From assembly GCF_016428645.1 (NCBI RefSeq), contig NZ_JAELXW010000022.1, positions 1 through 64,000 on the forward strand: a DNA stretch of 64,000 bases, read 5' to 3'. The DNA is from Glycomyces salinus (GTDB lineage Bacteria > Actinomycetota > Actinomycetes > Mycobacteriales > Micromonosporaceae). Shown piece by piece: positions 44,301-64,000 of this stretch (positions are counted from its first letter, which is position 1; each line of letters begins with the position of its first letter). Under the pieces are notes generated by a model. That model was not told the DNA's origin. It saw nothing but the letters and a program-made list of their open reading frames with translations, and made no database searches. A program made the position numbers and the translations under genes.

Positions 44301-45131
44301 TTACTTGTTGGCGGCCGGCTCGGCCAGTCGCCGCCGGTTGTGGCGGCCGAGGGGCCGACAGGAGAGCAGGCCGGTTACGGGGTCGGCGTCGACTTCGATG
44401 TCGATGCCGTAAGCGGTAGTGAGGTGCTCGCCGGTGAGCACCTCGGCCGGGGTTCCGGACGCGAGGACGCGTCCTTCGCACATCAGGACCGCGCGGTCGG
44501 CGACCGCGGCGGCCTGGTCGAGGTCGTGGAGGACGACGCCGACGGCGGTGCCGTGGTCGTCGGCCAGGTCGCGAACCAGGTCGAGGATCTCGACCTGGTA
44601 GCGCAGGTCGAGGTGGTTGGTGGGCTCGTCGAGCAGGAGCACGCCGGTGTCCTGGGCCAGGCAGGAGGCCAGCCAGACGCGCTGGCGCTCGCCGCCGGAG
44701 AGGGAGTCGACGCCGCGGGAGGCCATGCCGGTGATCCCGCAGATGTCCATGGCGCGTTCGACGGCGGCCGGTCCGTCCTCGTCGCCGGCCCTCCAGCGGC
44801 CGCGGTAGGGGTGGCGGCCGTAGCCGACGACGTCGACCACGCGGACGCCGCCGGGCACGGGCCTGGACTGCGAGAGCAGGGCGACCCGGCGGGCGAAGGA
44901 CTTGGGGCTGAGCGCGGCGGCGGGCACGCCGTCGTCGAGGGCGATCTCCCCGGACTCGGGGCGGTGGAGGCGGGCGAGGGCGCGCAGGACGGTGGACTTG
45001 CCGCTGCCGTTGGGGCCCAGCAGCGCGGTGACCTCGCCGGGCTCGACGGCGATGTCGGCGCCGTGCACGACGGTCTGGCCGAAGTAGGCGAGTTCGAGCG
45101 AGCGTCCGCGCAGGCCGGCATCCTGAGACAT
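44301..45131 (-). CDS. Iron-siderophore ABC ATPase (FepC/FecE type)
   Basis: This 276-residue ATPase has Walker A LGPNGSGKST, signature SLSGGERQRVWLA, Walker B LLLDEPTNHLDL and the H-loop VLHDLDQAAAV. It powers the importer encoded downstream. ATG 45131 touches an iron box and no ribosome site is visible upstream, so translation is probably from a leaderless mRNA. An IdeR/DmdR-type repressor would silence the operon when iron is plentiful. Confidence 0.94.
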   Translation of the reverse strand: MSQDAGLRGRSLELAYFGQTVVHGADIAVEPGEVTALLGPNGSGKSTVLRALARLHRPESGEIALDDGVPAAALSPKSFARRVALLSQSRPVPGGVRVVDVVGYGRHPYRGRWRAGDEDGPAAVERAMDICGITGMASRGVDSLSGGERQRVWLASCLAQDTGVLLLDEPTNHLDLRYQVEILDLVRDLADDHGTAVGVVLHDLDQAAAVADRAVLMCEGRVLASGTPAEVLTGEHLTTAYGIDIEVDADPVTGLLSCRPLGRHNRRRLAEPAANK

Positions 45132-48580: not shown

Positions 48581-48598
48581 TGGGTGCTCCTGGTTCGC

Positions 48599-49426
48599 TC
48601 AGCCCTTGACCGCGCCGGAGGTCAGTCCGGCGACGATCTGGCGGTTGAAGAAGGCGTACATGATCAGCGGCGGGACGGTGATGAGGAGGATGTCCATGAA
48701 CAGCAGGTTCCACTGGGTGGTGAACTGGCTGCGGAAGTTGTAGAGGGTCAGCTGCACGGTCGCGTTCTCGTCGCCGGGCAGGAAGTACAGCGGATTCTGG
48801 AAGTCGTTGAAGACCGCCACGGCCTGCACGATGACGACGGTGACGATGACCGACCGCAGCAGCGGGAGGACCACTTGGAAGAACAGGCGGACCGGCCCGG
48901 CGCCGTCGATGATCGCCGCCTCGTCGACCTCTCTGGGAATCGTGGCGACGAAAGCCCGGAACAGCAGGACGCAGAACGACAGTCCGAAGGCGACCTCGAT
49001 GAGGATCAGTCCGCCGAGCGTCGCGTACAGGCCCAGCCGCTGGAGGACCCAGATGGTCGGCACCACCGCGGGCGGGATGATCAGCCCGGCCAGCACCAGC
49101 GCGTTCAGCAGCGGCGTCCACCGGTTGGGCCGGCGCTGCATCACGTAGCCGACCATGGCGGCGAACACGACCATGATCGCGATGCTCGCTACGGTCAGGA
49201 TCGTGCTGTTGACGAACGCGGTCAGCAGCATGTAGTCGCGGGCCTCGACGACCGCGACGAGGTTCTCCCAGATCGCCCACTCGGTCGGCAGCGAGAACTC
49301 CAGCAGCGCCGACTCGGCGCGGGTCTTGGAGGCGGTCAGGAAGATGAACGCGAACGGGACCAGGAAGACCACGGCCGAGACGGCGATGGCGACGATCCCT
49401 GAGAGGATTCCGCCGGGACGCTTCAT
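48599..49426 (-). CDS. Sugar ABC permease (MalG type) of the rhamnoside importer
   Basis: The 275-residue subunit has about six helices (GILSGIVAIAVSAVVFLVPFAFIFL first) and the EAA loop VDEAAIIDGAGPVRLFFQVVLPL. Its ATG at 49426 overlaps the preceding permease stop by four bases (ATGA), a sign of translational coupling. It ends 18 bases before the rhamnosidase gene. With the second permease and the binding protein it forms an importer lacking its own ATPase. Confidence 0.92.
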   Translation of the reverse strand: MKRPGGILSGIVAIAVSAVVFLVPFAFIFLTASKTRAESALLEFSLPTEWAIWENLVAVVEARDYMLLTAFVNSTILTVASIAIMVVFAAMVGYVMQRRPNRWTPLLNALVLAGLIIPPAVVPTIWVLQRLGLYATLGGLILIEVAFGLSFCVLLFRAFVATIPREVDEAAIIDGAGPVRLFFQVVLPLLRSVIVTVVIVQAVAVFNDFQNPLYFLPGDENATVQLTLYNFRSQFTTQWNLLFMDILLITVPPLIMYAFFNRQIVAGLTSGAVKG

Positions 49427-50322
49427 CGCTCCACCTCCCGGCGGCTCAGGCCCCAGTACAGGGGCACCATGAGGGCGCTGACCAGCAGGAACAGCACCAC
49501 GTTTCCGGCCGCGGACAGGCCCCAGAACCCGGCCTGGTACTGCTTGAAGATCACCGAGGCGATCACGTCGGAGGTGAAGCCGGGGCCGCCGCGCGTCATG
49601 GTCCAGATCAGGTCGAACGACCGCAGGCCGCCGATCAGCGACAGGATGATCACTGTGGACGTCGCCGGCCACAGCAGCGGGAGGATCACGTACCGCAGGT
49701 TCTGGACCCGGGTGGCTCCGTCGACGCGGGCAGCCTCGAAGTACTCCTGCGGGATCGCGACGATCCCGGCGATGTAGATGAGCGTGGCCAGTCCGACGCC
49801 CTTCCACACGTCGACCAGGGCCACCGACACCAGCGCGAGGCTCGGATCGGTCAGCCAGCCGGGCCCGGCGACGCCGAGGACCTCCAGAACCCGGTTGATC
49901 AGGCCCTCGGCGGGGTCCATGAGCACCGAGAAGGTGACGCCGACGCCGACGGTGCTGACCAGGACCGGGAAGAACACGACCGAGCGCAGGTAGCTGCGGG
50001 CGATGATCTGCGAGGTCAGGTAGACCCCGAGCAGCAGCCCGAGCACGACTTTGAGCCCGGAGGTGAGCGCGCCGTAGACGACGGTGTTGATCAGGCCCCG
50101 GAGCAGGTACGGCTCCTGGAAGAACAGCACGAAGTTCTCCAGGCCGATGAACTCCGATCCGGCGATGGACCAGCGGGTGAAGGCGAAGTAGAACGAGGCG
50201 ACGGTCGGGACTACGAATAGCGTGCCGTAGACGGCCGCCGCGGGCAGGTAGAACCACATCGGATAGTGGCTCCTGGGGTCGCGCCGCCGCGTGCGCGGCG
50301 GGCGCAGGACAGTGGTGGTCAT
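49423..50322 (-). CDS. Sugar ABC permease (MalF type) of the rhamnoside importer
   Basis: This 299-residue membrane subunit has helices beginning WFYLPAAAVYGTLFVVPTVASFYFAF and the EAA loop YFEAARVDGATRVQNLRYVILPL. ATG 50322 has GGAGGAG upstream and is preferred to 50367. It precedes the MalG-type permease with a four-base overlap. A strong hairpin lies between it and the binding-protein gene. Confidence 0.92.
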   Translation of the reverse strand: MTTTVLRPPRTRRRDPRSHYPMWFYLPAAAVYGTLFVVPTVASFYFAFTRWSIAGSEFIGLENFVLFFQEPYLLRGLINTVVYGALTSGLKVVLGLLLGVYLTSQIIARSYLRSVVFFPVLVSTVGVGVTFSVLMDPAEGLINRVLEVLGVAGPGWLTDPSLALVSVALVDVWKGVGLATLIYIAGIVAIPQEYFEAARVDGATRVQNLRYVILPLLWPATSTVIILSLIGGLRSFDLIWTMTRGGPGFTSDVIASVIFKQYQAGFWGLSAAGNVVLFLLVSALMVPLYWGLSRREVER

Positions 50323-50339
50323 GGGATCTCCTCCGGAGT

Positions 50340-50371
50340 GACCGTGTCCGGCGGCGCTGCCGGACACGGTC
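50340..50371 (-). other. Intercistronic stem-loop after the rhamnoside binding-protein gene
   Basis: GACCGTGTCCGGC (50340-50352) pairs perfectly with GCCGGACACGGTC (50359-50371). It follows the binding-protein stop and precedes the permease start, a position where such hairpins often protect the upstream message and raise binding-protein yield. Confidence 0.6.
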
Positions 50372-50381
50372 GATCGGCCTT

Positions 50382-51698
50382 CTACCAGCCTTCGAGGCCG
50401 AGCTGCTGGGCCTGCTTCTTGACGTCCTCGTCGTAGAGGGCGGCGGCGTCTTCGGCCGAGCGGATGCCGGATCCGACTTCAACGGTGATCTGCTCGAGCG
50501 CCGGGCCCTTGACCGGCGACAGGAACTCCAGCGCCGGGGCGGTCAGCCCCGCGTCGAAGTATTCCTGCAACTGGGCGACGCCGGGCGGCACGTCCTCGGG
50601 GATCGTGCAGCCGTCGATGAAGTAGGGCCCGGTCACGCCGACGGCCTCGGTCTGGGCGTCGCAGCCCTCGACGCTGGCGGCGAAGGCCAGGAAGTCCTCG
50701 GCGGCCGCCTGGTCGTCGGTGGTCTGCGGCAGGTAGAGGGCACCGGGCAGCCAGGTGGTGACGCCCACGTCGTCGGGGTCCTCGCCGGGCAGGGCGAAGA
50801 ACCCGATGTCGTCCAGGGCGTCGGGGTCGGTGGCCCGCAGTTCGGTGATGGCGTTGGTGAGCATCGGGTAGTGGACGCCCTCGCCTGAGGCGAGTGCGGC
50901 GAGGCCGTCGGCGTAGCTAGCCGAGGCGAAGTCCTCGTTGAGGAACCCGGCCTCGTTCACCTCCTGGAGGTGCTCGAAACCGGCCATGGCGGCCGGGGTG
51001 TCGGCGTAGTGGGCCTCGTTGGCGGTGTACCGCTCGGCGAAGTCGGGCTCAGCCGCGAGCACGTTGTAGTTGTCGGCCAGGACGAACAGCTGCGAGGTCC
51101 AGGTGCTGTCGGGACCGTAGGTCTGGATCACCGGGGCCGCGTCTCCGGCGTCGAGGATCGCCTGGTTGTTGGCCGTGAACTCGTCCCAGGTGCGCGGGAC
51201 CTCCAGGCCCAGGTCCTCGTAGGCGGGCAGGTTGTAGAGGACGCCGCCGCCGACGGCGTTGCCGACCGGGACGCCGAAGACGCGGTCGTCGGAGCGGACC
51301 CCTTCCTGGAAGGTCTCGGCGACCGCGTCCATGAAGGGCTCGCCGGAGAGGTCGACGAGGTTCTGCTCGGGGGCGAGGGCCTGGAGGAGCGAGCCGGAGT
51401 TGTAGAAGAACAGGTCGGGCATGTCGCCGGTCTGGAGCCGGGTCTTGACGATGTTGTCGCCCTCGCTGCCGCCGGGGCGCAGCTCCAGGTCGATCTCGGT
51501 GTCGGGGTTGGCGGCGGTGTAGGCGTCGGCCAGCGCTTGGACCGAGTCGACGGTGGCCTCGGTGTTGTCGACGAGGATGGTGAGCGTGCCGTCGTCTCCC
51601 CCGGAGGAGCCGCACGCGGTGAGGGCCAGCGTCGCGGCCGCGGCGGCGGCCGCTCCGGCGACGCGCGCCGGGCCGGGGGGTCGGTGGATCGAGAACAT
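50382..51698 (-). CDS. Sugar-binding lipoprotein of the rhamnoside importer
   Basis: The 438-residue receptor has a lipoprotein signal (FSIHRPPGPARVAGAAAA...LTAC, lipobox LTAC) and a family 1 solute-binding fold (LTILVDNTEATVDSVQALADAY, RLQTGDMPDLFFYNSG). ATG 51698 has GGAGG upstream. The adjacent rhamnosidase implies a rhamnose-containing glycoside as ligand, by inference. A palindrome just upstream is a likely LacI site. Confidence 0.92.
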   Translation of the reverse strand: MFSIHRPPGPARVAGAAAAAAATLALTACGSSGGDDGTLTILVDNTEATVDSVQALADAYTAANPDTEIDLELRPGGSEGDNIVKTRLQTGDMPDLFFYNSGSLLQALAPEQNLVDLSGEPFMDAVAETFQEGVRSDDRVFGVPVGNAVGGGVLYNLPAYEDLGLEVPRTWDEFTANNQAILDAGDAAPVIQTYGPDSTWTSQLFVLADNYNVLAAEPDFAERYTANEAHYADTPAAMAGFEHLQEVNEAGFLNEDFASASYADGLAALASGEGVHYPMLTNAITELRATDPDALDDIGFFALPGEDPDDVGVTTWLPGALYLPQTTDDQAAAEDFLAFAASVEGCDAQTEAVGVTGPYFIDGCTIPEDVPPGVAQLQEYFDAGLTAPALEFLSPVKGPALEQITVEVGSGIRSAEDAAALYDEDVKKQAQQLGLEGW

Positions 51699-51727
51699 GG
51701 TCGTGACCTCCATTGGTTACGCCCGAC

Positions 51728-51743
51728 CGTTCCGATTGGAACG
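51728..51743. promoter_or_regulatory. Palindrome upstream of the rhamnoside binding-protein gene
   Basis: CGTTCC (51728-51733) and GGAACG (51738-51743) around GATT, 30 bases before ATG 51698 and in the 95-base gap from the LacI gene. It is a candidate operator for the LacI protein. Confidence 0.45.
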
Positions 51744-51793
51744 ATTCATTCGTGAGGGATCGTGTATTCGGTTGTCTCGGTTGGCGAGTGGGT

Positions 51794-52867
51794 TCAGCGG
51801 TCGCCGAGCGCGCGGAGCCGGGCGCTGGTGGCGCTGGGGCGCGGCGGGCGGGTGCTGGAGCGCACGACCAGCTCGGGCTCGATGACCTCGTGCCGGGGCT
51901 CGGTGCGTCCCGCGATGCGCTCGAGCAGCAGTCGCGCCGCCAGTGCGCCCAGGCGCTCGCCGTCCTGGTTCACGGTGGTCAGCGAGATTCCGGGGTGGCC
52001 GGCGATCTCGATGTCGTCGTAGCCGACCACCGAGACGTCTCCGGTGGTCAGGCCCGCGTCGGCGACGGCTCTGAGCACGCCCAGGGCCGGTTCGTCGTGC
52101 GAGGCGAATACGGCCGTCGGGGGTTCGGGGTCGCCGAGCATCGCCAGGGCCGCCCGGTGGGCCGCCGCCTCCCCGACTCCGACGCCGACGACGCGCATGC
52201 GCGAGCCGAGCCCGGCCTCCTCCATGGCCGCGCGGTACGTCTCGAGCCGGATCACCTGCGGCACACCGGGGTCGATCACGGCCTTCTCCGGTATGGAGGT
52301 GAGGTGCGCGATGTCGCGGTGGCCCAGTTCGAGCAGGTGGCGCATCGCCAGGCGGGCTCCGGCGGCGTCGTCGTTGACGACCGTGTCGTAGCGGTCCGAC
52401 GCGTCGTGGCGGCCGAGCATCACGACCGGGGTCGAGGCGGCGATCTCCTCGAGCCAGGCGGACTCGACCATCGGCGAGACCGCGATGACGCCGTCGACCT
52501 GGCGGTCCACCAGCGCCTGGATGGCGCGGTAGCCCTCCTGGTGAGTTTGGTCGGCCGGGGCGATGACCAGCTGGTACGGGGAGTCGGCGACCGCCGTGGT
52601 CGCTCCGGCGATGAGCCTGGTGAAGAACGAGTTGGCGAACTCGGGGAGCTCGATCCCCAGCGTGTAGGTGGCGCCGCGCATGCCGCGGGCCGACACGCTC
52701 GGGCGGTATCCGAGCTTCTTGATCGCGGCGTTGACGCGCTCGCGCATCGCCGGGCTGACTCCGTAGGCGTTCCGGATCACCTTGGAGACGGCCGCGCGGG
52801 AGACGCCCGCCTCGCGCGCGACGTCCTGGATGGTGACCGACCCGGCCGGAGTTCGCGATGCCGCCAC
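51794..52867 (-). CDS. LacI-family transcriptional regulator of the rhamnoside cluster
   Basis: The 357-residue regulator has a LacI helix-turn-helix (VTIQDVAREAGVSRAAVSKVIRNAYG), the hinge YRPSVSARGMRGA and an effector domain (VSVVGYDDIEIAGHPGISLTTVNQ). It sits first in the cluster, so it probably represses the importer and rhamnosidase and is autoregulated: palindromes lie before its start and another before the binding-protein gene. Confidence 0.92.
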   Translation of the reverse strand: MAASRTPAGSVTIQDVAREAGVSRAAVSKVIRNAYGVSPAMRERVNAAIKKLGYRPSVSARGMRGATYTLGIELPEFANSFFTRLIAGATTAVADSPYQLVIAPADQTHQEGYRAIQALVDRQVDGVIAVSPMVESAWLEEIAASTPVVMLGRHDASDRYDTVVNDDAAGARLAMRHLLELGHRDIAHLTSIPEKAVIDPGVPQVIRLETYRAAMEEAGLGSRMRVVGVGVGEAAAHRAALAMLGDPEPPTAVFASHDEPALGVLRAVADAGLTTGDVSVVGYDDIEIAGHPGISLTTVNQDGERLGALAARLLLERIAGRTEPRHEVIEPELVVRSSTRPPRPSATSARLRALGDR

Positions 52868-52878
52868 TGGAACCTCCC

Positions 52879-52926
52879 AGTTGTGTGATGGAGATCAATC
52901 TACACAACTTGTAGACCGATCTACAA
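52879..52926. promoter_or_regulatory. Overlapping inverted repeats before the rhamnoside LacI gene
   Basis: TTGTAG-ACCGAT-CTACAA (52909-52926) is a perfect repeat. CTACA-CAACT-TGTAG (52900-52914) overlaps it, and AGTTGTGT (52879-52886) pairs with ACACAACT (52902-52909). The cluster lies just upstream of the LacI start at 52867, as expected for autoregulation. Confidence 0.5.
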
Positions 52927-52951
52927 GAGGAGACCTCGGATCGATTTCAGA

Positions 52952-54065: not shown

Positions 54066-55445
54066 TCATGCCTCGGTTGAACCGAGACCCGCCATCTGGA
54101 GCAGCAGCGCCTTGACGTCGGTGGCGGCCAGTCGCTTCTCCTGGAGCGGCTCCGAGCACAGCAGCACCGGCGCGTTCGACGCGGCGGTCGGTATCACCCC
54201 GTGCGAGCCGCGGACCGCTTCGGCTCCGGCGTCGAGTCCGACCACGTTCATCCGGTACCGGAATCCGAGCCGCTTCTTGGCCAGGGCCTTCACGGCCCGG
54301 AGCTTGGCGGCGGTCGGCGCCGCCGGGTCGAAGAACAGCTCGGCGGGGTCGAAGCCGGGTTTGCGGTGGATCTCGACGTGGGTGGCGAAGTCCGGGGCGC
54401 GGGAGGCGTCCAGCCAGTAGTAGTAGGTGAACCAGGCGTCGGGGGCGGCCACCAGCACCAGTTCCCCCGAGCGCGGGTGGTCGAGCCCGTACCGCGCTTT
54501 GCCTTCGGCGTCCAGCACTTCGGCGACTCCCGGCAGCTTCGCGCACCGCTCCGCCGTTTCGGCCAGGTCGGCCCGGTCGCGCACGTACACGTGCGCCACC
54601 TGGTGGTCCGCGACCGCGAACGCCCGGGAAGTCCACGGGTCCAGGTACTCCATGCCGTCCTGGGTGTGGACGTGCAGCAGTCCGGCCTCGCGCAGCATCC
54701 GGTTGACGTGCACCGGCCGGTTCACCGCGCCGATGCCGTACTCGGACAGGGCCACGACGGTCGCGCCGCGGGCGTCGGCCGCGTCGAGGAGCGGTCCGAG
54801 CACCCGGTCGAGCGCTTCGGCGGCTTCGACGGCCTGCGGGGAGGCGGGACCGAAGCGTTGCAGGTCGTAGTCCAGGTGCGGGAGGTAGGCGAGGGTCAGG
54901 TCGGGGTCGCGGGTGTCCATCACGTGAACGGTCGCGGCGGCGATCCACGCCGAGGAGGCGATGCCCGCGCCCGGACCCCAGTAGTTGAACAGCGGGAACG
55001 GCGGCAGTTCGTCGTGGAGTTCGGGCGGGTAGGTGTAGCAGTCGGGTTCCTTGCGGCCGTCGGCGCGGTAGATCGGCCGCGGGGTGATGGTCCAGTCGAC
55101 GTCGGCGCCCATCGCGTACCACCAGCAGACGTTGGCGACCGTGTACCCGGGGTGGGACCGCCTCGCCCGCTCCCAGATCTTCTCCCCGCCGACCAGGGCG
55201 TTGTGCTGGCGCCACAGCAGCGGTTCCCCCAGTTCCCGGAAGTACCACCCGTTCCCGACGACGCCGTGCTCGCTCGGCAGGGTCCCGGTCAGGAGGCTGG
55301 ACTGGACGCTGCAGGTGACGGCGGGCAGCACGGTGTCGAGTCTGGCGCGGTGCCGGCAGGCGCGCCGGAGCCGCGGCATGTGCTCGAGCAGTCGCGGGGT
55401 GAGTCCGACGACGTCGAGGACGACCAGCGGTCGGGGGCGGTCCAT
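54066..55445 (-). CDS. EboF-like alkaline-phosphatase-superfamily phosphodiesterase
   Basis: The 459-residue protein belongs to the nucleotide pyrophosphatase/phosphodiesterase branch of the alkaline phosphatase superfamily. It opens LVVLDVVGLTPRLLEHMP (metal Asp), has the nucleophile region PAVTCSVQSSLLTGTLPSEHGVVGNGWY, the metal site YLPHLDYDLQRFGP and later VVALSEYGIG and DHQVAHVYV. It has no signal peptide. Gene order identifies it as EboF of an ebo-type cluster. The stop of eboE abuts its start codon (TAG ATG), a sign of one operon. Confidence 0.85.
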   Translation of the reverse strand: MDRPRPLVVLDVVGLTPRLLEHMPRLRRACRHRARLDTVLPAVTCSVQSSLLTGTLPSEHGVVGNGWYFRELGEPLLWRQHNALVGGEKIWERARRSHPGYTVANVCWWYAMGADVDWTITPRPIYRADGRKEPDCYTYPPELHDELPPFPLFNYWGPGAGIASSAWIAAATVHVMDTRDPDLTLAYLPHLDYDLQRFGPASPQAVEAAEALDRVLGPLLDAADARGATVVALSEYGIGAVNRPVHVNRMLREAGLLHVHTQDGMEYLDPWTSRAFAVADHQVAHVYVRDRADLAETAERCAKLPGVAEVLDAEGKARYGLDHPRSGELVLVAAPDAWFTYYYWLDASRAPDFATHVEIHRKPGFDPAELFFDPAAPTAAKLRAVKALAKKRLGFRYRMNVVGLDAGAEAVRGSHGVIPTAASNAPVLLCSEPLQEKRLAATDVKALLLQMAGLGSTEA

Positions 55446-56561
55446 CTATGACACTCCTAGCGTGTGCAGCTGTGCGCGGACGTAGTCCACTTCGGCGGCG
55501 ATGCCGGTGACGAGTCCGGCCTCGTCGCGGGGGCGCTGCGGCTCGGGCAGGGCGTTCCAGGTGTAGGTCTCCACTTCGAGGTGGTCGCAGGACGGTTCGC
55601 CCATCAGCACCGACAGTCCTCTGCGGAGGGTTTCGGTGGTGGACCGCAGCGGCGGCAGCGGGTCGGCGTGCAGCGGGACGTGGAAATGGACGCGCCAAGG
55701 TCCCGGTGCGCCCGAGGACAGCGCTTCGGGCAGGTCGTCGAAGTAGCGGCCGCCGGCACTGCGGGTCTGATGGAGGAATCGCGGCTCGGCGTAGTCGGCG
55801 AGGGCCGCCGCGTCGTTCACCGGGTCGGACACTTCCAGGGCCGCCGAGACCTGGGCTTTGACGATCGGGACTCCGGCCGCATCGAGGCGGTCGACCACGG
55901 CGGCCGGGTCCTCCCACGCGCAGGCGAGGTGGGCGAGGTCGAGGCAGGCGCCGATCTGCTCGGTGTCGACGGCGGCGAGCTCGTCCAGCAACTGGTCGGA
56001 GGTCTCGACCACGCACCCCGGTTCGGGTTCGAGGGCCACGCGGACGCGTCCGTCGCGCCTGAGCGCGGCGGCCAGTTCGCCGAGCAGCGTTCGCGCCCGT
56101 TCGGTGTGCCGGGTGCCCCACCCCACGCGCCAACCGAAGGGCAGGGTGGAGATCGATCCGCGCTCGGCGTCGTCGGGAAGCAGGTCGCGCAGAACGGCGG
56201 TGAGGTCGAGCGTGTACTCCAATCGGGACCGCGAGGTCCAGTCGGGCCGGTAGACGCGGCGCTTGACCACGGGCGCGTGGAAGGCCCGGTAGGGGAACCC
56301 GTTGAGCGTGACCACCTCGAGCCCGCGGGCGGTGAGCTCGCCGCGCAGGCGCGTCCGCAGGCCGCGGTCCCCGGCCAGGGCGGCGGCGACCGGTGCGGCA
56401 AGCCACAGGCCCAGGCCCAGCCGGGCGGCGCCGAGACGTTCCCGGACCGGAAGCGCGAAGCGGTCGAGTTGGGCCAGGACGCCCGGGAGGTCCTCGGCCG
56501 GGTGGACGTTGGTGCAGTAGGCGAGGTGGATGGTCCGCCCGCCGGGGTGGTGGAGCCGCAT
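55446..56561 (-). CDS. eboE: EboE-like metabolite traffic protein (TIM barrel)
   Basis: The 371-residue protein belongs to the xylose-isomerase-like TIM-barrel family and matches EboE of ebo clusters: HLAYCTNVHPAEDLPGVLAQL opens it, then ALEPEPGCVVETSDQLLDEL, IGACLDLAHLACAWEDPAAVV, and WRVHFHVPLHADPLPPL near the end. In the Nostoc punctiforme ebo cluster these genes are needed to move a scytonemin precursor to the periplasm; the chemistry is unknown. ATG 56561 follows GGAGG and overlaps the EboB stop (TGATG). Confidence 0.85.
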   Translation of the reverse strand: MRLHHPGGRTIHLAYCTNVHPAEDLPGVLAQLDRFALPVRERLGAARLGLGLWLAAPVAAALAGDRGLRTRLRGELTARGLEVVTLNGFPYRAFHAPVVKRRVYRPDWTSRSRLEYTLDLTAVLRDLLPDDAERGSISTLPFGWRVGWGTRHTERARTLLGELAAALRRDGRVRVALEPEPGCVVETSDQLLDELAAVDTEQIGACLDLAHLACAWEDPAAVVDRLDAAGVPIVKAQVSAALEVSDPVNDAAALADYAEPRFLHQTRSAGGRYFDDLPEALSSGAPGPWRVHFHVPLHADPLPPLRSTTETLRRGLSVLMGEPSCDHLEVETYTWNALPEPQRPRDEAGLVTGIAAEVDYVRAQLHTLGVS

Positions 56562-57409
56562 CACGAGCCTCCGCGCAGGATCGAGTTCCCGGCGAAGTGG
56601 TCCCCGGCGTCGGTCGGTTCCAGGTCCAGCCGCCCCGACTGGCCGTAGAACTCGACGGGGTTGCGCCACAGCACGGTGTCGACGTCGTCGTCGCTGAACC
56701 CTGAGGCGAGCATGGCCTCCCCGGTGGCGCGGGTCAGCAGCGGGTCCGAGCGGCCCCAGTCGGCGGCCGAGTTCACCAGGATCCGTTCGATTCCGTACCG
56801 CTGCAGCAGGGCGACCATCCGCTCGGGTGACATCTTCGTCTCGGGGTAGATGGAGAAGCCCATCCAGCAGCCGGTGTCCGCCGCCAGGTCGACGGTGACC
56901 TCGTTGAGGTGGTCGAGCACCACGCGGCCGGGTTCGATCCCGGATTCGCCGACCACTTCCAGGCTCCGGCGGACGCCTTCGACCTTGTCCCGGTGCGGGG
57001 TGTGGACGAGGGCCGGGAGGTCGTGTTCGACGGCCATGGCCAGTTGGGCGGCGAAGGCTTCGTCCTCGGCGGGGGTCATCGAGTCGTAGCCGATCTCGCC
57101 GACGGCCACTACGCGATCCTTGACCAGGTAGCGCGGGATCTCGTCCAGGACGCCCAGGCAGCGCGGGTCGCCCGCCTCCTTGGGGTTCAAGGCGATCGCG
57201 CAGTGGTGGCGGATGCCGTACTGGCCGGCGCGGAACGGCTCCCAGCCGATGAGCGAGTCGAAGTAGTCGATGAACGATCCGGTGCTCGTGCGCGGCTGGC
57301 CGAGCCAGAAGGCCGGTTCCACCAGGGCCCGGACTCCGGCGCCCGACATGCGCTCGTAGTCGTCGGTGGTGCGCGAGGTCATGTGGATGTGGGGGTCGAA
57401 GATGCGCAT
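56561..57409 (-). CDS. eboB: EboB-like TatD-family hydrolase
   Basis: This 282-residue metal-dependent hydrolase has the amidohydrolase-fold HxH at DPHIHMTSR near the start, a Glu in VAVGEIGYDSM, a His in LVHTPHRDK, and GIERILVNSAADWGRSDPL. EboB proteins are TatD-like. ATG 57409 is chosen; it overlaps the end of the upstream EboA-fusion gene by about 30 bases, and its own stop overlaps the EboE start by one base. The reaction is unknown. Confidence 0.85.
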   Translation of the reverse strand: MRIFDPHIHMTSRTTDDYERMSGAGVRALVEPAFWLGQPRTSTGSFIDYFDSLIGWEPFRAGQYGIRHHCAIALNPKEAGDPRCLGVLDEIPRYLVKDRVVAVGEIGYDSMTPAEDEAFAAQLAMAVEHDLPALVHTPHRDKVEGVRRSLEVVGESGIEPGRVVLDHLNEVTVDLAADTGCWMGFSIYPETKMSPERMVALLQRYGIERILVNSAADWGRSDPLLTRATGEAMLASGFSDDDVDTVLWRNPVEFYGQSGRLDLEPTDAGDHFAGNSILRGGS

Positions 57410-58737
57410 CGGCTCAGCCTTTCCAGCAGGTCGGTCACGTCGTCGGGCAGGCCGCGTCCGGTGGCTTCGCGTTCGCGGCGCAGGCTCTCGAGCATCCGGG
57501 CCAGTTCCGCGTCGGCCCGCTCCTCGATGCCGTGCATCAGGCTCGGCGACAGGCCCATGAACACGCCCTTGAGGACGGCCTGGCGCCACTCGGGGGCGGC
57601 CAGGTGCCGGGAGTAGGGCCCGAGGGCGGCCGCCACGAGGCGGGGATCGTTGCTGCGCAGGGCGTCGTGCAGCAGGTCGAGGTGGGCGCCGGTGCCGTCG
57701 AGGCGGTGCAGCGCCTGGAGTACGGCGCGCTTCTCGTCGTTGTCGCCCCGGCGGTAGAGGTCCGGAGCCATCTGGGGCGGTGTCGAGCGGAGAAGGCGGA
57801 TCCGGGCTTCGTCCGCCGCTTCCCCGCCGACGTTGCGGCGCACGGCGGGGAGGATCGCCGTGATGCGTTCGGGGTCGGCCGCGACGGTCTCGGCGGCTCG
57901 GCCCAGCCACTCGGCGGCTCGCAGTCGCTTCAGCGAGCGGGCGGCGACCTCCGGGGCGGCGTGCGAGTGGCGCGGCAGTTCGACGCCGACCAGTCCGGTG
58001 TAGCCGACCGCCCGAAGCGCGTCCATGACCGGCGGGAAGTCGATCTCGCCCTCCCCGAATTCGAGGTGCTCGTGCACGCCGCGGCGCATGTCGTCGATCT
58101 GGACGTTGACGAGGTGGGTTCCGGCGGCTCTGACGCATGCGGCGGCGTCCTGCGGTTCGACCGCCCGGCAGTGCCCGATGTCGAGCGTCAGGCCGAACCG
58201 CCGGGGCGCGCCGAGGTCGTCGCGCAGTCGGCGCCACTGGGCGATCGTGTCGACGACCATGCCCGGTTCGGGTTCGAAACCCAGGTTCATCTCGCGCCGG
58301 TCGGCGTGCGCGACCACTTCCGCGCAGCCGGAGACGAGTCGGTCCCAGGTGCCGGTGGACGGCGAGGTTCGGCCGGACCAGAACGAGACGGCCTCGGCTT
58401 CGAGGTCGACGGCGATGTCGACGGCCCGCTTGAGGAAGTCCACGCGCACGTGCCCTTCGGGGTCGACCAGGGTGGGGGCGTGCTTGCGGCGGGGGTCGAG
58501 CAGGTAGCGTGCGCCGGTCTCGACCACCACCGCCAGGCGGCGTCGCCGCAGTTCGCGGGCCACCTGCTCCACTCGGCGGTCCAGTTCCGGCGCGAACGGG
58601 TCGAGGTGCGCGTGGTCGAGCGTCAGCGCGACGCCGACGTATCCGAGTTCGGCGACGACGTCGAGCGCGTCGGTGAGGCGGTGGTTGGCGAAACCGTTGG
58701 TGCCGTAACCGAATCGCAGGCCGGTCGACTCGCTCAT
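57379..58737 (-). CDS. eboA: Fusion of a TIM-barrel isomerase-like domain and an EboA domain
   Basis: This 452-residue protein has two parts. Residues 1-~290 form a xylose-isomerase-like TIM barrel (LRFGYGTNGFANHRLTDALDVVAELGYVG, EPEPGMVVDTIAQWRRL, LTLDIGHCRAVEPQDAAACV). Residues ~295-450 form an EboA domain (LYRRGDNDEKRAVLQALHRL, NDPRLVAAALGPYSRHL, PEWRQAVLKGVFMGLSPSLMHGI). EboA is free-standing in most ebo clusters. ATG 58737 overlaps the UbiA stop by four bases. The fusion suggests the two act together on one metabolite. Confidence 0.85.
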   Translation of the reverse strand: MSESTGLRFGYGTNGFANHRLTDALDVVAELGYVGVALTLDHAHLDPFAPELDRRVEQVARELRRRRLAVVVETGARYLLDPRRKHAPTLVDPEGHVRVDFLKRAVDIAVDLEAEAVSFWSGRTSPSTGTWDRLVSGCAEVVAHADRREMNLGFEPEPGMVVDTIAQWRRLRDDLGAPRRFGLTLDIGHCRAVEPQDAAACVRAAGTHLVNVQIDDMRRGVHEHLEFGEGEIDFPPVMDALRAVGYTGLVGVELPRHSHAAPEVAARSLKRLRAAEWLGRAAETVAADPERITAILPAVRRNVGGEAADEARIRLLRSTPPQMAPDLYRRGDNDEKRAVLQALHRLDGTGAHLDLLHDALRSNDPRLVAAALGPYSRHLAAPEWRQAVLKGVFMGLSPSLMHGIEERADAELARMLESLRREREATGRGLPDDVTDLLERLSRCASSTPTST

Positions 58738-59594
58738 GTGGGTGACACCGCCTTGGCCAGCCGCCTGCCGAGCGGCGCCAGGGCCGCTACGGCGAGGCCG
58801 ACGAGCGGTCGCCCGCTGCGGGACGCCAGGGCGCCTTGGAGGGTCGGCATCGAGGTGATGCCCGCCGCGACCGCCGAGCGGATCGTTCCGGCGTCGGGCC
58901 TGGCCACTGCGGCGCGCTGGGCCCGGCCGAAGTCGAACGCGTACCGGCCCGCCAGGAGCGCCGAGGCCGCGCCGGACGTTCTCGGCGTCGCCTCGGGTCG
59001 GGCGGTCGAGGCGGCGGCGATCCCGGCGGTGGCGGTCATCGTCGCCGCGGGCAGGACCGGGTCGGCCCCGGTGGTCTCGCGGCGCGACAGTTCGGTGACG
59101 GCCCAGGTGTGCGCGGCCATCACCGCGGCCGGTCGCAGCGCGCGGCGCACGCGGCCCGGAGCGGCGCCGAGCAGGACGTCCAGGCCCCGGCACAGCGCCA
59201 TCCCGGCGGGGCCGGCGGCGGTGTTCTTGAGTTTGAGGTCGTAGGTCCAGACCGCCGCCGCCAGCGCGGCGGCGGTGGGAAGGACTCGGCGTCCGCCCGC
59301 CGCGGCGGCGATCGCCAGGCCGGTCGCGGTCAGGCCGCCTGCGGCGAGCAGCGCCTGCCCGGGGCCGACCCGGCCGGAGGGTATCGGCCGGGTCGGCCGC
59401 TCGACGGCGTCGAGTTCGCGGTCGGCCCAGTCGTTGGCGGCCATGCCCGCCCAGTAGAGGCACACCGAGGCCGCGGCGATACCGGCCGTGCGCCGGTTCA
59501 GGCATCCGGCGGCGGCCGCGCCCGCGACGGCGTCGCCCGGCACCGACAGCGCGCCCGGGGCACGCACCAGTTCGATGAGGTCACGCGGTCGCAT
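58734..59594 (-). CDS. eboC: EboC-like UbiA prenyltransferase (SCO3242 family)
   Basis: The 286-residue integral membrane protein has the UbiA fold, with the first Asp-rich motif MAANDWADRELDAVERP and the second motif YDLKLKNTAAGPAG; about eight helices are predicted. It should transfer a prenyl or similar lipid chain to an acceptor at the membrane. It resembles the SCO3242 family of actinobacteria and corresponds to EboC. Its start overlaps the preceding gene by 14 bases and its stop overlaps the EboA-fusion start by four. The acceptor and donor are unknown. Confidence 0.87.
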   Translation of the reverse strand: MRPRDLIELVRAPGALSVPGDAVAGAAAAGCLNRRTAGIAAASVCLYWAGMAANDWADRELDAVERPTRPIPSGRVGPGQALLAAGGLTATGLAIAAAAGGRRVLPTAAALAAAVWTYDLKLKNTAAGPAGMALCRGLDVLLGAAPGRVRRALRPAAVMAAHTWAVTELSRRETTGADPVLPAATMTATAGIAAASTARPEATPRTSGAASALLAGRYAFDFGRAQRAAVARPDAGTIRSAVAAGITSMPTLQGALASRSGRPLVGLAVAALAPLGRRLAKAVSPT

Positions 59595-60723
59595 CGTTCG
59601 GTCCCTCCGCCCATTCGAGCAGCGCCCGCCACTGGTCGGCCAGGGCGTGCGGGACGTCGCCGATCGGGTCCTTGAAGAAGAACGCCAGCTGCGGCAGCGG
59701 GCCGACCTCGCCGCGCTCGTGCGCGGCGGCGGTGAGGCGGGCCAGGTCGATCACCAGCGGGGCGGCCAGCGCCGAATCGCAGCCGTGCCAGGTGAACTCC
59801 ATCCGCATGGGCGTGCCGAGGAACCCGCTGAAGGTGATCAGGTCCCAGGCGGTCTTGCGGTCGCCTAGGTCGGGCACGTATTCGATGCCGGTCCGTCCTT
59901 CGGGTTCGTATCCCAGGGTCTCGCGCAGCACGCGCTGCTTGCTGGCGGTCTTGGCCGCGTTGGCCTCCGGCTCGGCCAGGTTCGCGCCGTCGCCGCCGCC
60001 CAGCAGGTTGAGTCCCGACCACGACCGCACCCGCAGGTTCCGCATCGCGAACATCGGGGCGAGGACCGATTTGAGCAGCGTCTCGCCGGTCTTGCCGTCG
60101 TGGCCCGCGAACGGCGCGCCCGATCGGACCGCGAGTTCGGCCAGGGCGGGCAGGCGCGCCCCGGTCGAGGGTGTGAAGTCCACATACGAGCATCCGGCGG
60201 TGAAGGCCGCGTAGGCGTACATCGAGCTCGGCGGCAGCGGTGCGCCCTTCCGCAGCGCCGCGTCCAGTTCGCGCAGGCCGCGGTGGGCGCTCAGCGGCGC
60301 GGCCGCCGGTTCGGTGGAGGCGACGTTGACGACCACCACCCGGCGCAGGTCGTGCCGCGACCGGAAGTCCTCCAAGTCCGCGACCACTTGCCGGACCTGG
60401 TCGTGCTGGATCGGATCGCGCGGCGCCGGACGCAGGTCCGCCTCGGTCTCGTGCAGCGCTTCGGCGGTCTTCTCGACGACGTCCGTCGGCAGGACTCCCG
60501 CCTGAGCCAGCGAGAGCGAGCGCTCCATCAGGCTCGCCGTGACGCGGTCGTGCCCGCCGAAGACCAGGTCGGACATGGCGGGCAGGTCCGCGCCGCGCAG
60601 TTCGGGCAGCTCGGTGACGAGGCCGACCGGCTCGGTCGGCGCCGTCCGGGCCGACAGGGCCCCGACGATCGCGCTCACCGCCACCGATCCGCGAGCGCCG
60701 ACCAGCCATACGCCGGTTCTCAT
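59581..60723 (-). CDS. myo-Inositol-1-phosphate-synthase-like protein (in the EboD position)
   Basis: This 380-residue NAD-dependent enzyme resembles myo-inositol-phosphate synthases: GVWLVGARGSVAVSAIVGAL (Rossmann loop), VVVNVASTEPAAA, PSSMYAYAAFTAGCSYVDFTPS, GHDGKTGETLLKS, and LNLLGGGDGANLAE. In standard ebo clusters this place is taken by EboD, a dehydroquinate-synthase-like cyclase; both families cyclise sugar phosphates. ATG 60723 follows GGGAGGAACC. A cyclitol or related polar metabolite may be the substrate; this is inference. Confidence 0.85.
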   Translation of the reverse strand: MRTGVWLVGARGSVAVSAIVGALSARTAPTEPVGLVTELPELRGADLPAMSDLVFGGHDRVTASLMERSLSLAQAGVLPTDVVEKTAEALHETEADLRPAPRDPIQHDQVRQVVADLEDFRSRHDLRRVVVVNVASTEPAAAPLSAHRGLRELDAALRKGAPLPPSSMYAYAAFTAGCSYVDFTPSTGARLPALAELAVRSGAPFAGHDGKTGETLLKSVLAPMFAMRNLRVRSWSGLNLLGGGDGANLAEPEANAAKTASKQRVLRETLGYEPEGRTGIEYVPDLGDRKTAWDLITFSGFLGTPMRMEFTWHGCDSALAAPLVIDLARLTAAAHERGEVGPLPQLAFFFKDPIGDVPHALADQWRALLEWAEGPNDATA

Positions 60724-60748
60724 GGTTCCTCCCTCTTTGGCAGGGGCA

Positions 60749-60784
60749 GGGAGCCCCGGCTCCGGTTCCAAGGCCGGGGCTCCC
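60749..60784 (-). terminator. Strong hairpin inside the ebo-type operon
   Basis: GGGAGCCCCGGC (60749-60760) pairs perfectly with GCCGGGGCTCCC (60773-60784), 12-base loop, in the 78-base gap between the isomerase stop and the inositol-phosphate-synthase-like start. It leaves only 25 bases for a promoter and ribosome site, so it is probably an attenuator or processing site rather than a full operon end. Confidence 0.6.
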
Positions 60785-60801
60785 CGCGTTCTGGTGCTCC
60801 G

Positions 60802-61806
60802 TCAGTCGGAGCTGAAGGCCGCGTCGAACGCGGCCTCCGGCGGGTCGAACGCGAGGCGGCGGACGAACTCCAGCGCCTCGGGGGCGCCGACCAGGCGGTC
60901 CATGCCCGCGTCCTCCCACTCCACCGAGATCGGGCCGTCGTAGCCGATCGCGTTGAGCGTCCGGAAGCACCGTTCCCAGGGCACGTCGCCGTGCCCGGTG
61001 GAGACGAAGTCCCAGCCCCGGCGCGGATCGGCCCACGGCAGGTGCGAGCCGAGCCGCCCGGCGCGGCCGTCGCTGGTCTGGAGCTTGGCGTCCTTGCAGT
61101 CGACGTGGTAGATCCGGTCCCGGAAGTCGTACAGGAATCCGGCCGGATCGATGCCCTGCCAGACCATGTGCGAGGGATCCCAGTTGAGGCCGAACGCCGG
61201 GCGGCGCCCGATCGCCTCCAGGGTCGCGACGGTGGTCCAGTAGTCGTAGGCGATCTCCGAGGGGTGGACTTCGTGGGCGAAGCGCACCCCTTCTTCGTCG
61301 AAGACGTCGAGGATCGGATTCCACCGGTCGGCGAAGTCCCGGTAGCCGGCCTCGATCGTCTCGGCCGGGACCGGCGGGAACATCGCCACGTACTTCCAGT
61401 TCGCCGAACCGGTGAAGCCGATGACGGTGTCGACGCCGAGCCGCTTGGCCGCCCGGGCGGTCGCCTTCATCTCTTCGGCGGCGCGTCCGCGCACCGCCTC
61501 AGGCTCGCCGTCGCCCCACACCCGGGCGGGGAGGATGGCCTGGTGGCGGGCATCGATCGGATCGTCGCAGACCGCCTGCCCGGCCAGGTGGTTCGAGATC
61601 GCCCACACCTTCAGGTGGTGCTTCTCGAGCAGGTCGAGCCGGGACCGGACGTAGGCGTCGTCATCGGCAGCCCGCACGACGTCGAGATGGTCGCCCCAGC
61701 AGGCGATCTCGAGCCCGTCGTAGCCCCAGCCCGAGGCCAGTCGGCACACCTCCTCGAACGGCAGGTCGGCCCATTGGCCGGTGAACAGCGTGATCGGTCG
61801 AGTCAT
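60802..61806 (-). CDS. Sugar-phosphate isomerase/epimerase-like TIM barrel protein
   Basis: The 334-residue protein has the AP endonuclease 2/xylose isomerase fold: [94 protein letters not shown] and YHVDCKDAK, with His, Glu and Asp residues that usually bind Mn or Zn. It lacks a signal peptide. ATG 61806 has GAAGGAGCG upstream, 25 bases after the sugar dehydrogenase stop. Its place suggests it makes or feeds a cyclitol to the downstream genes. Confidence 0.83.
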
Positions 61807-61831
61807 CGTTCGCTCCTTCGCATAGGGGAGG

Positions 61832-64000
61832 TCATCCGAAGTTCCACTGCTGGTTGGTGCCGCCGTGGCAGTTCCACACGATCGCCGCGGTGCCGTTGTC
61901 GGTCCCGGCGCCATCGACGTCCAGGCACAGCCCGGTGGCGGCGTGGGTGACGGTGCCGTCGCCGCCGAGCTCCCACTGCTGGTCCGCGCTTCCGTCGCAG
62001 TCCCAGATGGTCGCCGCGGTACCGGCTCCGGTGCCGCCGCCTTCGAGGTCCAGGCACTTGAGCGAGTCGCCGGAGTAGACCGTCAGCTCCCCCGAAGCGG
62101 TGTGCGTCCACTGTTGGTTGGAGCCGCCGTGGCAGTCCCAGATGTGGACCTCCGCGCCGTTCTGGACCGACTGGCCCGACACGTCCAGGCACCTTCCGGC
62201 GCTGGTCGACCGCAGTTCGCCGCTCTGGTCCCCGCCGGGTTCGGCGATGCCCTCGCCCTGGAACTCCATCCAGTTGACGTTCAGCAGGAAGTCGGTGCCA
62301 CCGGAGGGGCTGCGGACGACGAAGTACAGCGCCGTCCCGTCCGCCGGAACGTTCTCGAGCCCGGCGGTGACGGTCGTCCAGTTCTGCCAGCCGCCGGTGC
62401 CCTCGACCGCGGCGGAGCCGACGAGCGGACCCTCCGGGTCGTTCGCGCGGATCTCGATGACCCCGCCGGTGGTGCCGGAGGCGACCCGGAGGTCGACCGC
62501 GTCGATTCCGGAGAGGTTCATCGGTTCGAACCCGAACCAGTCGCCGTCGGTGGCCCAGCCGAGGTTCTGGCCGCCGCCGGTGTCGGTGGTCGCCTCCAGC
62601 GCCACGCCGGGGTCGTCGGAGCCGACGCCGCCGGGCACGCGCCCGGTGCCGGTGTAGTACTCGGCCTCCTTGTGCTTGGTGTGGAGGACCACGGACTCCT
62701 CGGTAGTCAGCGGCTTCGCGCCGCCCGCTCCGCCGCCGTCGGTGTAGCTGACGGTCACCACGCCGAAGATGTTCGCCCCGACGTGCCCCTCGTCGCCCGG
62801 CAGCGGGAAGGACCCCTCGCAGCCGTAGTACTGCTCGTACCCGTGGGCGTGCTCGTCGTGGCCGAGCGCGGGCTGGGTGACCACGTTCTGGCAGTCGATC
62901 TGCCCGTCCTCGGGGTCGGTGACGGTGACCCGGTACGGGATCGTGTCGCCCCAGTCGAAGAACCCGCCTTCGACCGGCAACTCGATGGTCACCGTCGGCG
63001 CGGTGTTGCCCGCGACGATCTCGACGTCGGACAGCGCCGTCCTGCCGTCCTCGGCTGTGACGGTCAGCGTGGCGAGGTGATTGCCAGCTTCGGTGTAGGT
63101 GTGCTCGGCCTCGACCCCGGTGGTGTCGGCGGTGCCGTCGCCGTCGAAGTCCCACGAGTACTCCAGTGGACCGCCTTCGGGATCGGTCGATCCGGCCCCG
63201 GAGAACTGGACGGTCAGCGGCGCCGGACCCGAGGTGGTGTCGGTCTCGATCTGCGCGATCGGATCGCGGGGGCCGCTCGAGTAGTGGTCGATCCTGTAGA
63301 TGCCCGAGTCGTCGTTGCCGCCGCCGAATCCGGTCCCCCAGTCGATGACGTACAGCGCACCGTCCGGGCCCCATTTGAGCTCGTGGATACGGGTGAAGTC
63401 CATGTCCTCCAGGATTCGGTCGACCGCGACGACGTCGCTGACCGACGCGTCGGGCTGGACGGCGAACATCCTGCCGTCGTTCCAGTCCCCGTAGATCGCC
63501 GTGCCGTCGAATTCGACGGGCCAGGCGCGGCTGGGATCGGACGCGGGGTCGTAGCGGTAGACCCCGCTGGTGGTCGGTCCGCCGCTGCCGCCGATCTCGG
63601 GCACGCCGGTCGAGGACTTGCCCATCCACATCTCCGATGCGATCGCGGGAGGGAGGTCGGTGACGCCGGTGTTGTTCGGGGAGTCGTTCACCGGGTTCGC
63701 GCAGTCGAATTCACCGCCGGACTGACCGGTGGCGAAGTCGTAGTCGACGTACGGCGTGTTGTCGCCGACGCAGTAGGGCCAGCCGTAGAAGCCGGGCTCG
63801 TCGACGATGTTCCACTCGACTCGGCCGTCCGGTCCGCGGTTCGGGTCGGCGGCTCCGGCGTCGGGACCGTAGTCGGCGACCATGACCTTCCCGGTCTCGG
63901 GGTCGGTCCCGATCGAGAACGGGTTGCGGAAGCCCATCGCGTAGATCTCGGGACGCGTGTTCGGAGTGCCGGGTTCGAACAGGTTGCCTGAGGGGATCGT
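61832..64000 (-). CDS. Secreted multidomain PQQ-type sugar dehydrogenase (5' end outside window)
   Basis: The reading frame is open to the right edge, so the N-terminus lies beyond 64000. The visible 722 residues hold the end of a glucose/sorbosone-dehydrogenase-like six-bladed propeller ([39 protein letters not shown]), a PKD domain ([22 protein letters not shown]), a CBM6-like module ([18 protein letters not shown]), and a C-terminal ricin-B lectin with three QQW repeats. It oxidises or binds polysaccharide outside the cell. A PQQ-binding half is not fully visible, so catalysis is likely but unproven. Confidence 0.88.

Follow-up and report, generated by a model that had tools for sequence, protein, structure and literature searches.

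The ebo gene cluster (eboABCDEF) is known from cyanobacteria, Bacteroidota and Proteobacteria, and in Nostoc the removal of a metabolite from the cytoplasm has been reported to depend on it (PMC6282210). In the available text of a 2016 paper, its product was predicted to consist of an isoprenoid and a cyclitol, a prediction resting on one cyclase without established specificity (PMC5133447). Ebo clusters, actinobacterial EboA hybrids and ebo loci of Saccharomonospora have already been published (PMC5133447, PMC9235831); Yurchenko and colleagues had mentioned the hybrids of a TIM barrel and EboA without showing the data (PMC5133447). A further described relative is the SCO3242/SCO3243 pair of Streptomyces coelicolor, annotated as a transferase and a myo-inositol phosphate synthase (MIPS), respectively; in the part of the source available, the two genes are given as expression values and their neighbours are counted as calcium-dependent antibiotic (CDA) genes (PMC3610822), and their likeness to the present locus is one of annotation and family model. 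The present analysis concerns an ebo-type operon of the actinobacterium Glycomyces salinus (genome of 5.37 Mb), located in the window, by which is meant the whole stretch of DNA analysed, i.e. the first 64000 bases of one contig (NZ_JAELXW010000022.1).

The operon resembles the published ebo clusters in its compactness, in encoding an EboE protein and an EboA domain that score above the cut-offs of their family models and in the homology of its EboB, EboC and EboF proteins. It differs from them in carrying a MIPS-family gene instead of eboD, an additional TIM barrel and an EboC of the SCO3242 type. The locus represents a second class of ebo-type operon, with a cyclase of the MIPS family replacing EboD, a sugar-phosphate cyclase of the dehydroquinate-synthase fold. 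NCBI family names already cover the individual parts. No published statement of the replacement was found in a full-text literature search of limited coverage, and the word 'inositol' is absent from PMC6282210, PMC9235831 and PMC5133447.

Mutual exclusion of MIPS and EboD

The type of cyclase was examined in 118 fetched loci (L016-L019, L021-L110 and L119-L142, the window not being counted and related loci not being thinned), 115 of which encode EboE, the remaining three being L137, L138 and L142. In the 90 EboE-bearing loci with at least 6.5 kb of sequence upstream of EboE, 77 were found to have MIPS only, eight EboD only and five neither, and none had both; the other 25, with shorter upstream sequence, include 19 without a cyclase and six with MIPS. 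A similar pattern was observed at the level of complete gene content in 22 EboE-positive actinobacterial genomes, where an orthologue of the ebo-type MIPS (at least 45% identity and at least 197 bits) is present without an EboD orthologue in 19, the reverse holds for one (G419) and neither is present in two (G036 and G040). The EboD orthologue of G419 (57% identity, 421.5 bits) is the only one in this set, the best matches to the EboD query in the other genomes not exceeding 145 bits, a level that dehydroquinate synthases would be expected to give; no EboD orthologue was found in the window genome, its best match being 107.5 bits at 37% identity. Conversely, G419, G036 and G040 contain only distant MIPS matches of at most 54 bits. 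The MIPS orthologue and EboE lie on different contigs in G032, whose ebo contig is 6 kb long, and in G317.

The division is also seen in the phylogeny of EboE, where a branch with 100/100 support parts all the actinobacterial MIPS-type rows from all the EboD-type rows. Trees were inferred from hand-chosen subsets of 52 of 53 EboE (L136 being too short), 37 EboC, 39 EboB, 38 EboF and 28 MIPS sequences. The one MIPS-bearing locus on the EboD side of that branch belongs to plasmid 2 of Gemmatirosa kalamazoonensis, a member of the Gemmatimonadota (L103, 2102-9227), and the MIPS rows were kept as one group in none of 200 bootstrap trees. This locus encodes a MIPS with 45% identity, EboB, EboC, EboE, EboF and a TIM protein with 49% identity to the TIM domain of the window fusion; no EboA match was found in it. 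Its EboF falls within the EboD-type clade (99/98) and its EboB groups with those of the EboD-type Deinococcus and G419 loci (100/100), while its EboC groups with the MIPS-type actinobacterial loci (92/85, on a long branch). On these placements the locus is likely to be a natural chimera, in which MIPS, the TIM protein that partners it and an EboC of the MIPS type are joined to EboB, EboE and EboF proteins related to those of EboD-type clusters, and the simplest reading of them is that the cyclase, the TIM protein and the prenyltransferase were transferred as one module. The cyclase and the prenyltransferase would thus seem to travel together.

A cluster akin to the MIPS-type form, in an archaeon, is present on a plasmid of Natronococcus sp. 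CG52 (L137, 3945-15237), where TatD, TIM, UbiA, TIM, MIPS and phosphodiesterase genes are followed by genes for a TIM protein and a pyrroloquinoline quinone (PQQ) sugar dehydrogenase; EboE and EboA were not recognised in this locus. Its EboC-like protein scores 197 bits with the EboC model and 161 bits with the SCO3242-family model, both below the cut-offs. In the Haloferax volcanii control genome the EboE model gave a match below the cut-off, perhaps to a TIM protein like those of the archaeal cluster.

Single loci without a cyclase differ in character. L120 is the second cluster of a genome whose other cluster has MIPS. L136 (genome G317, contig C21) is a decaying cluster, with EboE in two pieces in different frames, an EboC fragment and the MIPS orthologue on another contig. 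In L110, on a plasmid of Streptomyces sp. NBC_01244 (9989-11167), eboE stands alone, with aromatic polyketide genes adjoining it, and L016 (G040, 5868-7112; EboE 423 bits, over the cut-off) and L019 (G036, 6207-7379; EboE 213 bits, below it) are similarly isolated; other ebo genes were not detected near any of the three. EboE may serve a role of its own in L016 and L019.

Organisation and distribution of the operon

The sequence-only reading had described six genes in strict overlap, encoding EboF, EboE, EboB, a fused EboA, EboC and a different cyclase in the place of EboD. Open reading frame (ORF) calls together with NCBIfam and Pfam matches bear out the identities and positions of the six genes, all on the minus strand, and the junction coordinates their overlap or abutment (Table 1), an arrangement that fits a single operon as far as the sequence goes. 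The two Pfam matches of the first gene place its cyclase in the MIPS family, and the EboE and EboA products, on whose profile scores that reading had staked itself, exceed their NCBI cut-offs. The protein that it labelled EboC fits the SCO3242 family better than the classic EboC model NF035940 (123.3 bits against a cut-off of 250), and the match to the former family is its point of likeness to S. coelicolor SCO3242.

Table 1. Genes and other features of the ebo operon and its upstream flank in the window
Feature	Position	Strand	Model matches	Junction with next gene
MIPS-family cyclase, in the place of EboD	59581..60723	-	PF07994, 145.4 bits (cut-off 25); PF01658, 114.1 bits (cut-off 27)	MIPS stop 59581, EboC start 59594
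EboC-type UbiA prenyltransferase, SCO3242 family	58734..59594	-	NF045897, 364.9 bits (cut-off 260)	EboC stop 58734, TIM-EboA start 58737
TIM-EboA fusion, 452 aa: N-terminal xylose-isomerase-like TIM barrel, C-terminal EboA domain	57379..58737	-	PF01261, 130.7 bits (residues 25-274, Pfam); NF035938, 119.9 bits (cut-off 50; residues 309-437, NCBIfam)	TIM-EboA stop 57379, EboB start 57409
EboB, TatD-like metal-dependent hydrolase	56561..57409	-	PF01026 (TatD), 44.5 bits	EboB stop and EboE start both at 56561
EboE, TIM-barrel protein	55446..56561	-	NF035939, 390.4 bits (cut-off 250), profile 1-379/379	EboE stop 55446, EboF start 55445
EboF, type I phosphodiesterase/nucleotide pyrophosphatase family	54066..55445	-	PF01663, 215 bits	
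G+C-rich hairpin of 15 bp between TIM2 gene and MIPS; possible terminator or attenuator lacking a T-run	60746..60787	-		
TIM2, sugar-isomerase-like TIM barrel, recurrent neighbour	60802..61812	-	PF01261, 147.7 bits	
ThuA-GSDH-PKD-CBM6-ricin protein, probably secreted	61832..64000 (ORF to ~65395)	-	PF06283, 279 bits; PF07995, 134 bits	

The MIPS gene starts with an ATG at 60723, preceded by a purine-rich, GGAGG-like stretch. The second part of the fusion protein matches the EboA-domain model, and the model of the stand-alone EboA family, NF035937, gave 38.3 bits with it against a cut-off of 320. An AlphaFold2 model of the EboA domain (predicted local distance difference test, pLDDT, 95.9) is all helical, which agrees with the helical-repeat guess in the available text of the Nostoc paper (PMC6282210); a known fold was considered for the domain and rejected, a fold search of the PDB being without a match at E 0.001 or better. 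The TatD-like EboB and the PF01663 protein EboF are encoded in the same compact cluster as EboE, and EboB identity ranges from 65 to 82% across the tblastn matches in MIPS-type actinobacterial loci. The 91-nt stretch around the hairpin upstream of MIPS has a minimum free energy of -46 kcal/mol (z -4.2), so the ebo genes may form a separate unit or an attenuated extension of the unit upstream. Sigma-70-type promoters and T-run terminators were dropped as evidence on the operon, the promoter scan having found none of the former and the count of terminator-like sites being one against 2.1 expected by chance.

The taxonomic range given in the sequence-only reading proved too narrow, as the cluster is common in the Actinomycetota. 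In a scan of named genomes, relatives of EboE were found to be encoded at 581 loci or more, and the best 80, which form the locus set for the counts of gene order and neighbours given here, are all actinobacterial (Micromonospora, Streptomyces, Amycolatopsis, Nonomuraea, Terrabacter, Cellulomonas, Kribbella and others); being the best matches, they lean to close relatives of the window locus. Plasmid loci were contributed by 12 matches from 48 records (and a 13th), three from 132 and one from 16. In an even draw of 396 genomes from the phylum, EboE was detected at E 0.001 or better in 19, of which 18 score above the cut-off, and 18 of the 19 contain the ebo-type MIPS. Within the genus of the window organism EboE is present in one genome of 22. 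A clean empty site in the congeners was sought and abandoned, since G016 matches the window from 60799 rightward and G014 at 46012-52930, with none of the stretches retrieved spanning both sides.

The survey of gene order in other actinobacteria that the sequence-only reading had suggested gave the order MIPS-EboC-TIM/EboA-EboB-EboE-EboF in 60 of the 76 scored loci from the best 80; of the 16 without the full order, 14 lack MIPS, all with less than 3.5 kb upstream of EboE. In 72 of the 80 loci TIM and EboA are encoded separately, whereas four have the fusion and four are unassigned, as judged by gene-call length (fused being a call above 400 aa by a home-made gene caller, compared by eye with the annotation of L109 only). 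The fusion in the window is thus the minority form.

The cyclase, the prenyltransferase and the predicted product

The solved structure nearest to the window MIPS is that of Archaeoglobus fulgidus MIPS (1u1i, E 1.2e-68), followed by MIPS of the eukaryotic type. The two enzymes share their active-site residues, N239, K258, K262, K290 and K351 of the window protein corresponding to A. fulgidus N255, K274, K278, K306 and K367, and differ in that the window enzyme lies in an ebo operon, whereas that of A. fulgidus acts in the formation of archaeal inositol compounds. None of the five positions varies among the 86 distinct MIPS sequences compared, which include those of Gemmatirosa and two haloarchaea, one of the latter (L138) from outside any ebo-like cluster. 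Alanine at N255, K278 and K367 is seen among the PDB sequences matching the window MIPS; K274 and K306 are presumably also important for activity. The mycothiol INO1 model TIGR03450 scored 48 bits with the window MIPS, against a cut-off of 638. A second MIPS-family gene, whose protein is very distant from the ebo MIPS, is present on contig C79 of the window genome, and a further MIPS-family gene was found elsewhere in 16 of the 19 genomes with an ebo-type MIPS; genomes G136, G090 and G114 additionally have an intermediate MIPS with 40-41% identity.

EboC of the window matches the UbiA family (PF01040, 59.6 bits, cut-off 34.2), and its NDxxDxxxD motif (N54, D55, D58, D62), together with Y118, D119 and K123, is conserved in at least 90% of 49 sequences. 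In a search of solved structures EboC had no match and EboE nothing significant. With the AlphaFold2 model of EboC (pLDDT 94.4), the best fold matches in the PDB by E-value are the digeranylgeranylglyceryl phosphate (DGGGP) synthases 6m31 and 7bpu (2-3e-7), followed by the UbiA proteins of Aeropyrum pernix (2e-4) and A. fulgidus and the membrane-bound phosphoribosyltransferase 8j8j (1.2e-2). EboC shares with DGGGP synthase and other enzymes of the UbiA superfamily the fold and the aspartate-rich motifs, at 15% identity in the structural alignment.

A gene for a prenyl-diphosphate synthase, detected with a home-made profile, occurs at the edge of the cluster in 27 of 118 loci (a set that includes the window and omits L016), 24 of them among the best 80. 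It directly follows EboF on the same strand in 20 of these 80, starting 0-141 bp from the EboF match, and also in L017; elsewhere it is divergent upstream of MIPS (L051, L066), upstream on the same strand (L119), or convergent, either next to the cluster (L135) or 1.3 kb away (L035, L046), so that four or five arrangements can be distinguished. A representative of the linked synthases matches PF00348 with 158 bits. As a genome has about three such genes, linkage in 27 of 118 loci is far above chance, the background rate for this gene, as for TIM2 below, having been reasoned from copy number and genome size. Most of the linked synthases inspected, those of L035, L046 and L119 apart, have a phenylalanine four or five positions ahead of the DDxxD motif. 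A phenylalanine there is a mark of short-chain products (C15-C20).

These observations can be combined into a four-step scheme, towards which the evidence leans, if only modestly: an inositol phosphate made by MIPS would be prenylated by EboC, and the resulting lipid would be used outside the cytoplasm. Homology and the conserved active site predict that MIPS converts glucose 6-phosphate to myo-inositol 1-phosphate. EboC, as a membrane enzyme of the UbiA type, would then add a short prenyl chain, probably C15-C20, to the cyclitol phosphate or a close derivative, a step modelled on the archaeal DGGGP synthase, which prenylates a glycerol phosphate. The TIM domain, EboE, EboB and EboF may subsequently act on the head group, altering it, removing its phosphate or setting it free, and the helical EboA domain would be a putative scaffold. 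Most speculatively, the cyclitol lipid might act as a membrane carrier or cofactor outside the cytoplasm, for instance in metabolite export or for a secreted beta-propeller oxidase. The prenylated cyclitol proposed in the sequence-only reading gains support from the MIPS-family cyclase with its conserved active-site residues, the linked prenyl synthase and the fold match of EboC, although the prenylation of inositol is still a step that we infer. The export named in the same reading derives from the work on Nostoc.

Several points weigh against the four-step scheme and the coupling of cyclase and prenyltransferase which it implies. Five EboE loci have neither cyclase in spite of sufficient flanking sequence (L019, L039, L110, L120 and L136), and L039 nevertheless contains matches to EboA, EboB, EboC and EboF, with no TIM protein; genomes G036 and G040 encode EboE and neither cyclase orthologue genome-wide. 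The MIPS fold does not guarantee inositol as the product, a synthase of a five-membered cyclitol phosphate (6k96) being among the PDB relatives of the window MIPS. TM-scores of EboC are alike for DGGGP synthase (0.65) and plain UbiA (0.66). The window cluster has no linked prenyl-synthase gene, the three such genes of the genome being all on other contigs. The well-supported branches of the EboE tree do not by themselves force Gemmatirosa into the EboD group, and the Natronococcus EboC-like protein groups, on long branches, with the EboC of the EboD-type Aureibacter locus although its own locus has MIPS, which counts against a strict coupling. In vitro, the Maribacter EboC Ubi-297 is reported to have farnesylated quinoline acids, including 8-hydroxyquinoline-2-carboxylic acid (PMC9235831), and the EDB cluster of Pseudomonas gave indoles in Escherichia coli, as summarised in a review (PMC9655573).

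The four-step scheme would be extended by a broader proposal, put forward tentatively and with more doubt than confidence, that a prenyl-ether inositol phosphate, an isoprenoid lipid in the archaeal style, is made by actinobacteria, one member of the Gemmatimonadota and at least one haloarchaeon and serves as a diffusible membrane carrier or cofactor for secreted enzymes and metabolite export, while EboD-type clusters would make a heptose-derived analogue. As part of the same doubtful proposal, the module behind the lipid would consist of an archaeal-like MIPS and a UbiA enzyme resembling DGGGP synthase, to which many actinobacterial loci would add a prenyl-diphosphate synthase of their own.

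An unrelated cyclase of known chemistry, the apparent change of prenyltransferase in the chimeric locus and the recurrent prenyl synthase together provide independent support for the 2016 prediction. Since the ring would be made by a different and well-understood kind of enzyme, the ebo product can be sought directly, and the interest of the MIPS-type form lies in making the question of this product testable: an inositol phosphate and a short prenyl diphosphate form an assayable substrate pair, and S. coelicolor is one example of a tractable host. A lipid pathway common in actinobacteria may exist under the label 'inositol-3-phosphate synthase', considering the 18 of 19 EboE-positive genomes noted above.

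Neighbouring genes and competing explanations

Upstream of the operon, the window contains TIM2 and a gene for a ThuA-GSDH-PKD-CBM6-ricin-lectin protein of 1187 aa, a member of the family found most often beside ebo loci. Five families suggestive of sugar oxidation recur in the flanks of the best 80 loci: ThuA-GSDH in 41, TIM2 in 39, a Tat-signal-like TIM protein in 33, ThuA with a 3-keto-disaccharide hydrolase in 27 and Gfo/Idh/MocA in 22. At least one of the five is present in 58 loci; all are absent from the other 22, of which 12 have more than 20 kb of sequence. TIM2 is mostly single-copy, with a close match (at least 59% identity) in 17 of the 20 genomes searched (those of the 22 EboE-positive genomes other than G036 and G040). 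In nine of the 17 (the window genome G000, G024, G032, G146, G167, G210, G284, G372 and G407) TIM2 and EboE are no more than 10 kb apart, and in six they are unlinked; contig ends preclude judgement in G200 and G356.

Five loci contain genes of the ScyD/ScyE family, and in three of them (plasmids of S. camelliae and Streptomyces sp. NBC_00028, and L046) such a gene immediately precedes MIPS. L109 and L141, the two on Streptomyces plasmids among these three, echo the cyanobacterial scytonemin link and have a multicopper oxidase gene nearby. The window ThuA-GSDH protein and ScyE both match TIGR02604, weakly; as an idea only, the common thread of the neighbours might be a secreted beta-propeller oxidase.

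The first of the competing explanations, a real contender though probably not the right one, regards the operon as an export unit in the Nostoc sense, in which an ebo lipid carrier, or a transporter formed by the Ebo proteins, moves the metabolite of a neighbouring pathway out of the cell; its first steps are compatible with the four-step scheme and its purpose differs. The ScyD/ScyE genes directly upstream of MIPS, the proximity of MIPS-type clusters to aromatic polyketide genes and a non-ribosomal peptide synthetase gene, the retention of scytonemin monomer in the cytoplasm of Nostoc ebo mutants (available text of PMC6282210) and the counting of SCO3242 and SCO3243 with the CDA cluster in the accessible part of PMC3610822 are all consistent with it. 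However, the NCBIfam and Pfam matches of the six proteins name no transporter, the biosynthetic neighbours vary, the ten chosen genes scanned on the left of the operon included no obvious natural-product cluster and 58 loci adjoin the sugar-oxidation-type genes.

A second explanation, that EboC prenylates an aromatic compound of the quinoline or indole type, that any head group made by the cyclase is unrelated to it and that the isoprenoid-cyclitol idea is wrong, is considered unlikely. The farnesylation by Ubi-297 and the indole products of the EDB cluster described above argue for it. It leaves unexplained, however, why two unrelated cyclase families occupy one place and why a MIPS-type EboC stands beside MIPS in the Gemmatirosa locus; it is further weakened in that the available text of PMC9235831 and PMC9655573 names aromatic acceptors only and no trial of cyclitols.

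It seems quite unlikely that the operon belongs to an extracellular system of sugar oxidation and 3-keto-sugar metabolism, in which the ebo product would be a membrane-bound helper of the secreted ThuA-GSDH beta-propeller enzymes, with TIM2 and Gfo/Idh/MocA proteins processing the products. The recurrence of the five neighbour families, the proximity of the mostly single-copy TIM2 to EboE in nine genomes and the presence of a PQQ sugar-dehydrogenase gene beside the haloarchaeal locus and of a PQQ-dependent dehydrogenase gene beside the EboD-type locus of Salipiger point in this direction. Against them stand the 22 loci without any of the five families, 12 of them with ample sequence, the unlinked or unjudgeable position of TIM2 in ebo genomes outside this class, the strong hairpin between TIM2 and MIPS in the window and the occurrence of TIM2 in 20 of 21 congeners, none of which has EboE.

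That MIPS, as a member of the same enzyme family as INO1, does no more than feed inositol into primary metabolism (mycothiol, phosphatidylinositol) and stands in the operon by accident, is very improbable and was rejected in view of the second, distant MIPS-family gene of the window genome, the further copies in 16 of 19 genomes, the conserved gene order in 60 of 76 loci and the mutual exclusion with EboD.

On the left of the ebo operon, genes for a FecCD-like transporter, a binding protein and an ATPase (41207-45131) and for an alpha-L-rhamnosidase and a sugar ABC transporter, with a LacI regulator (45998-52867), were recognised, those for the FecCD-like transporter, binding protein, ATPase and sugar ABC transporter by eye from the translations. 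In L109, a tetracycline-resistance prediction of PLSDB at 16469-16792 covers a 324-base gene for a 2Fe-2S protein and is probably a false call.

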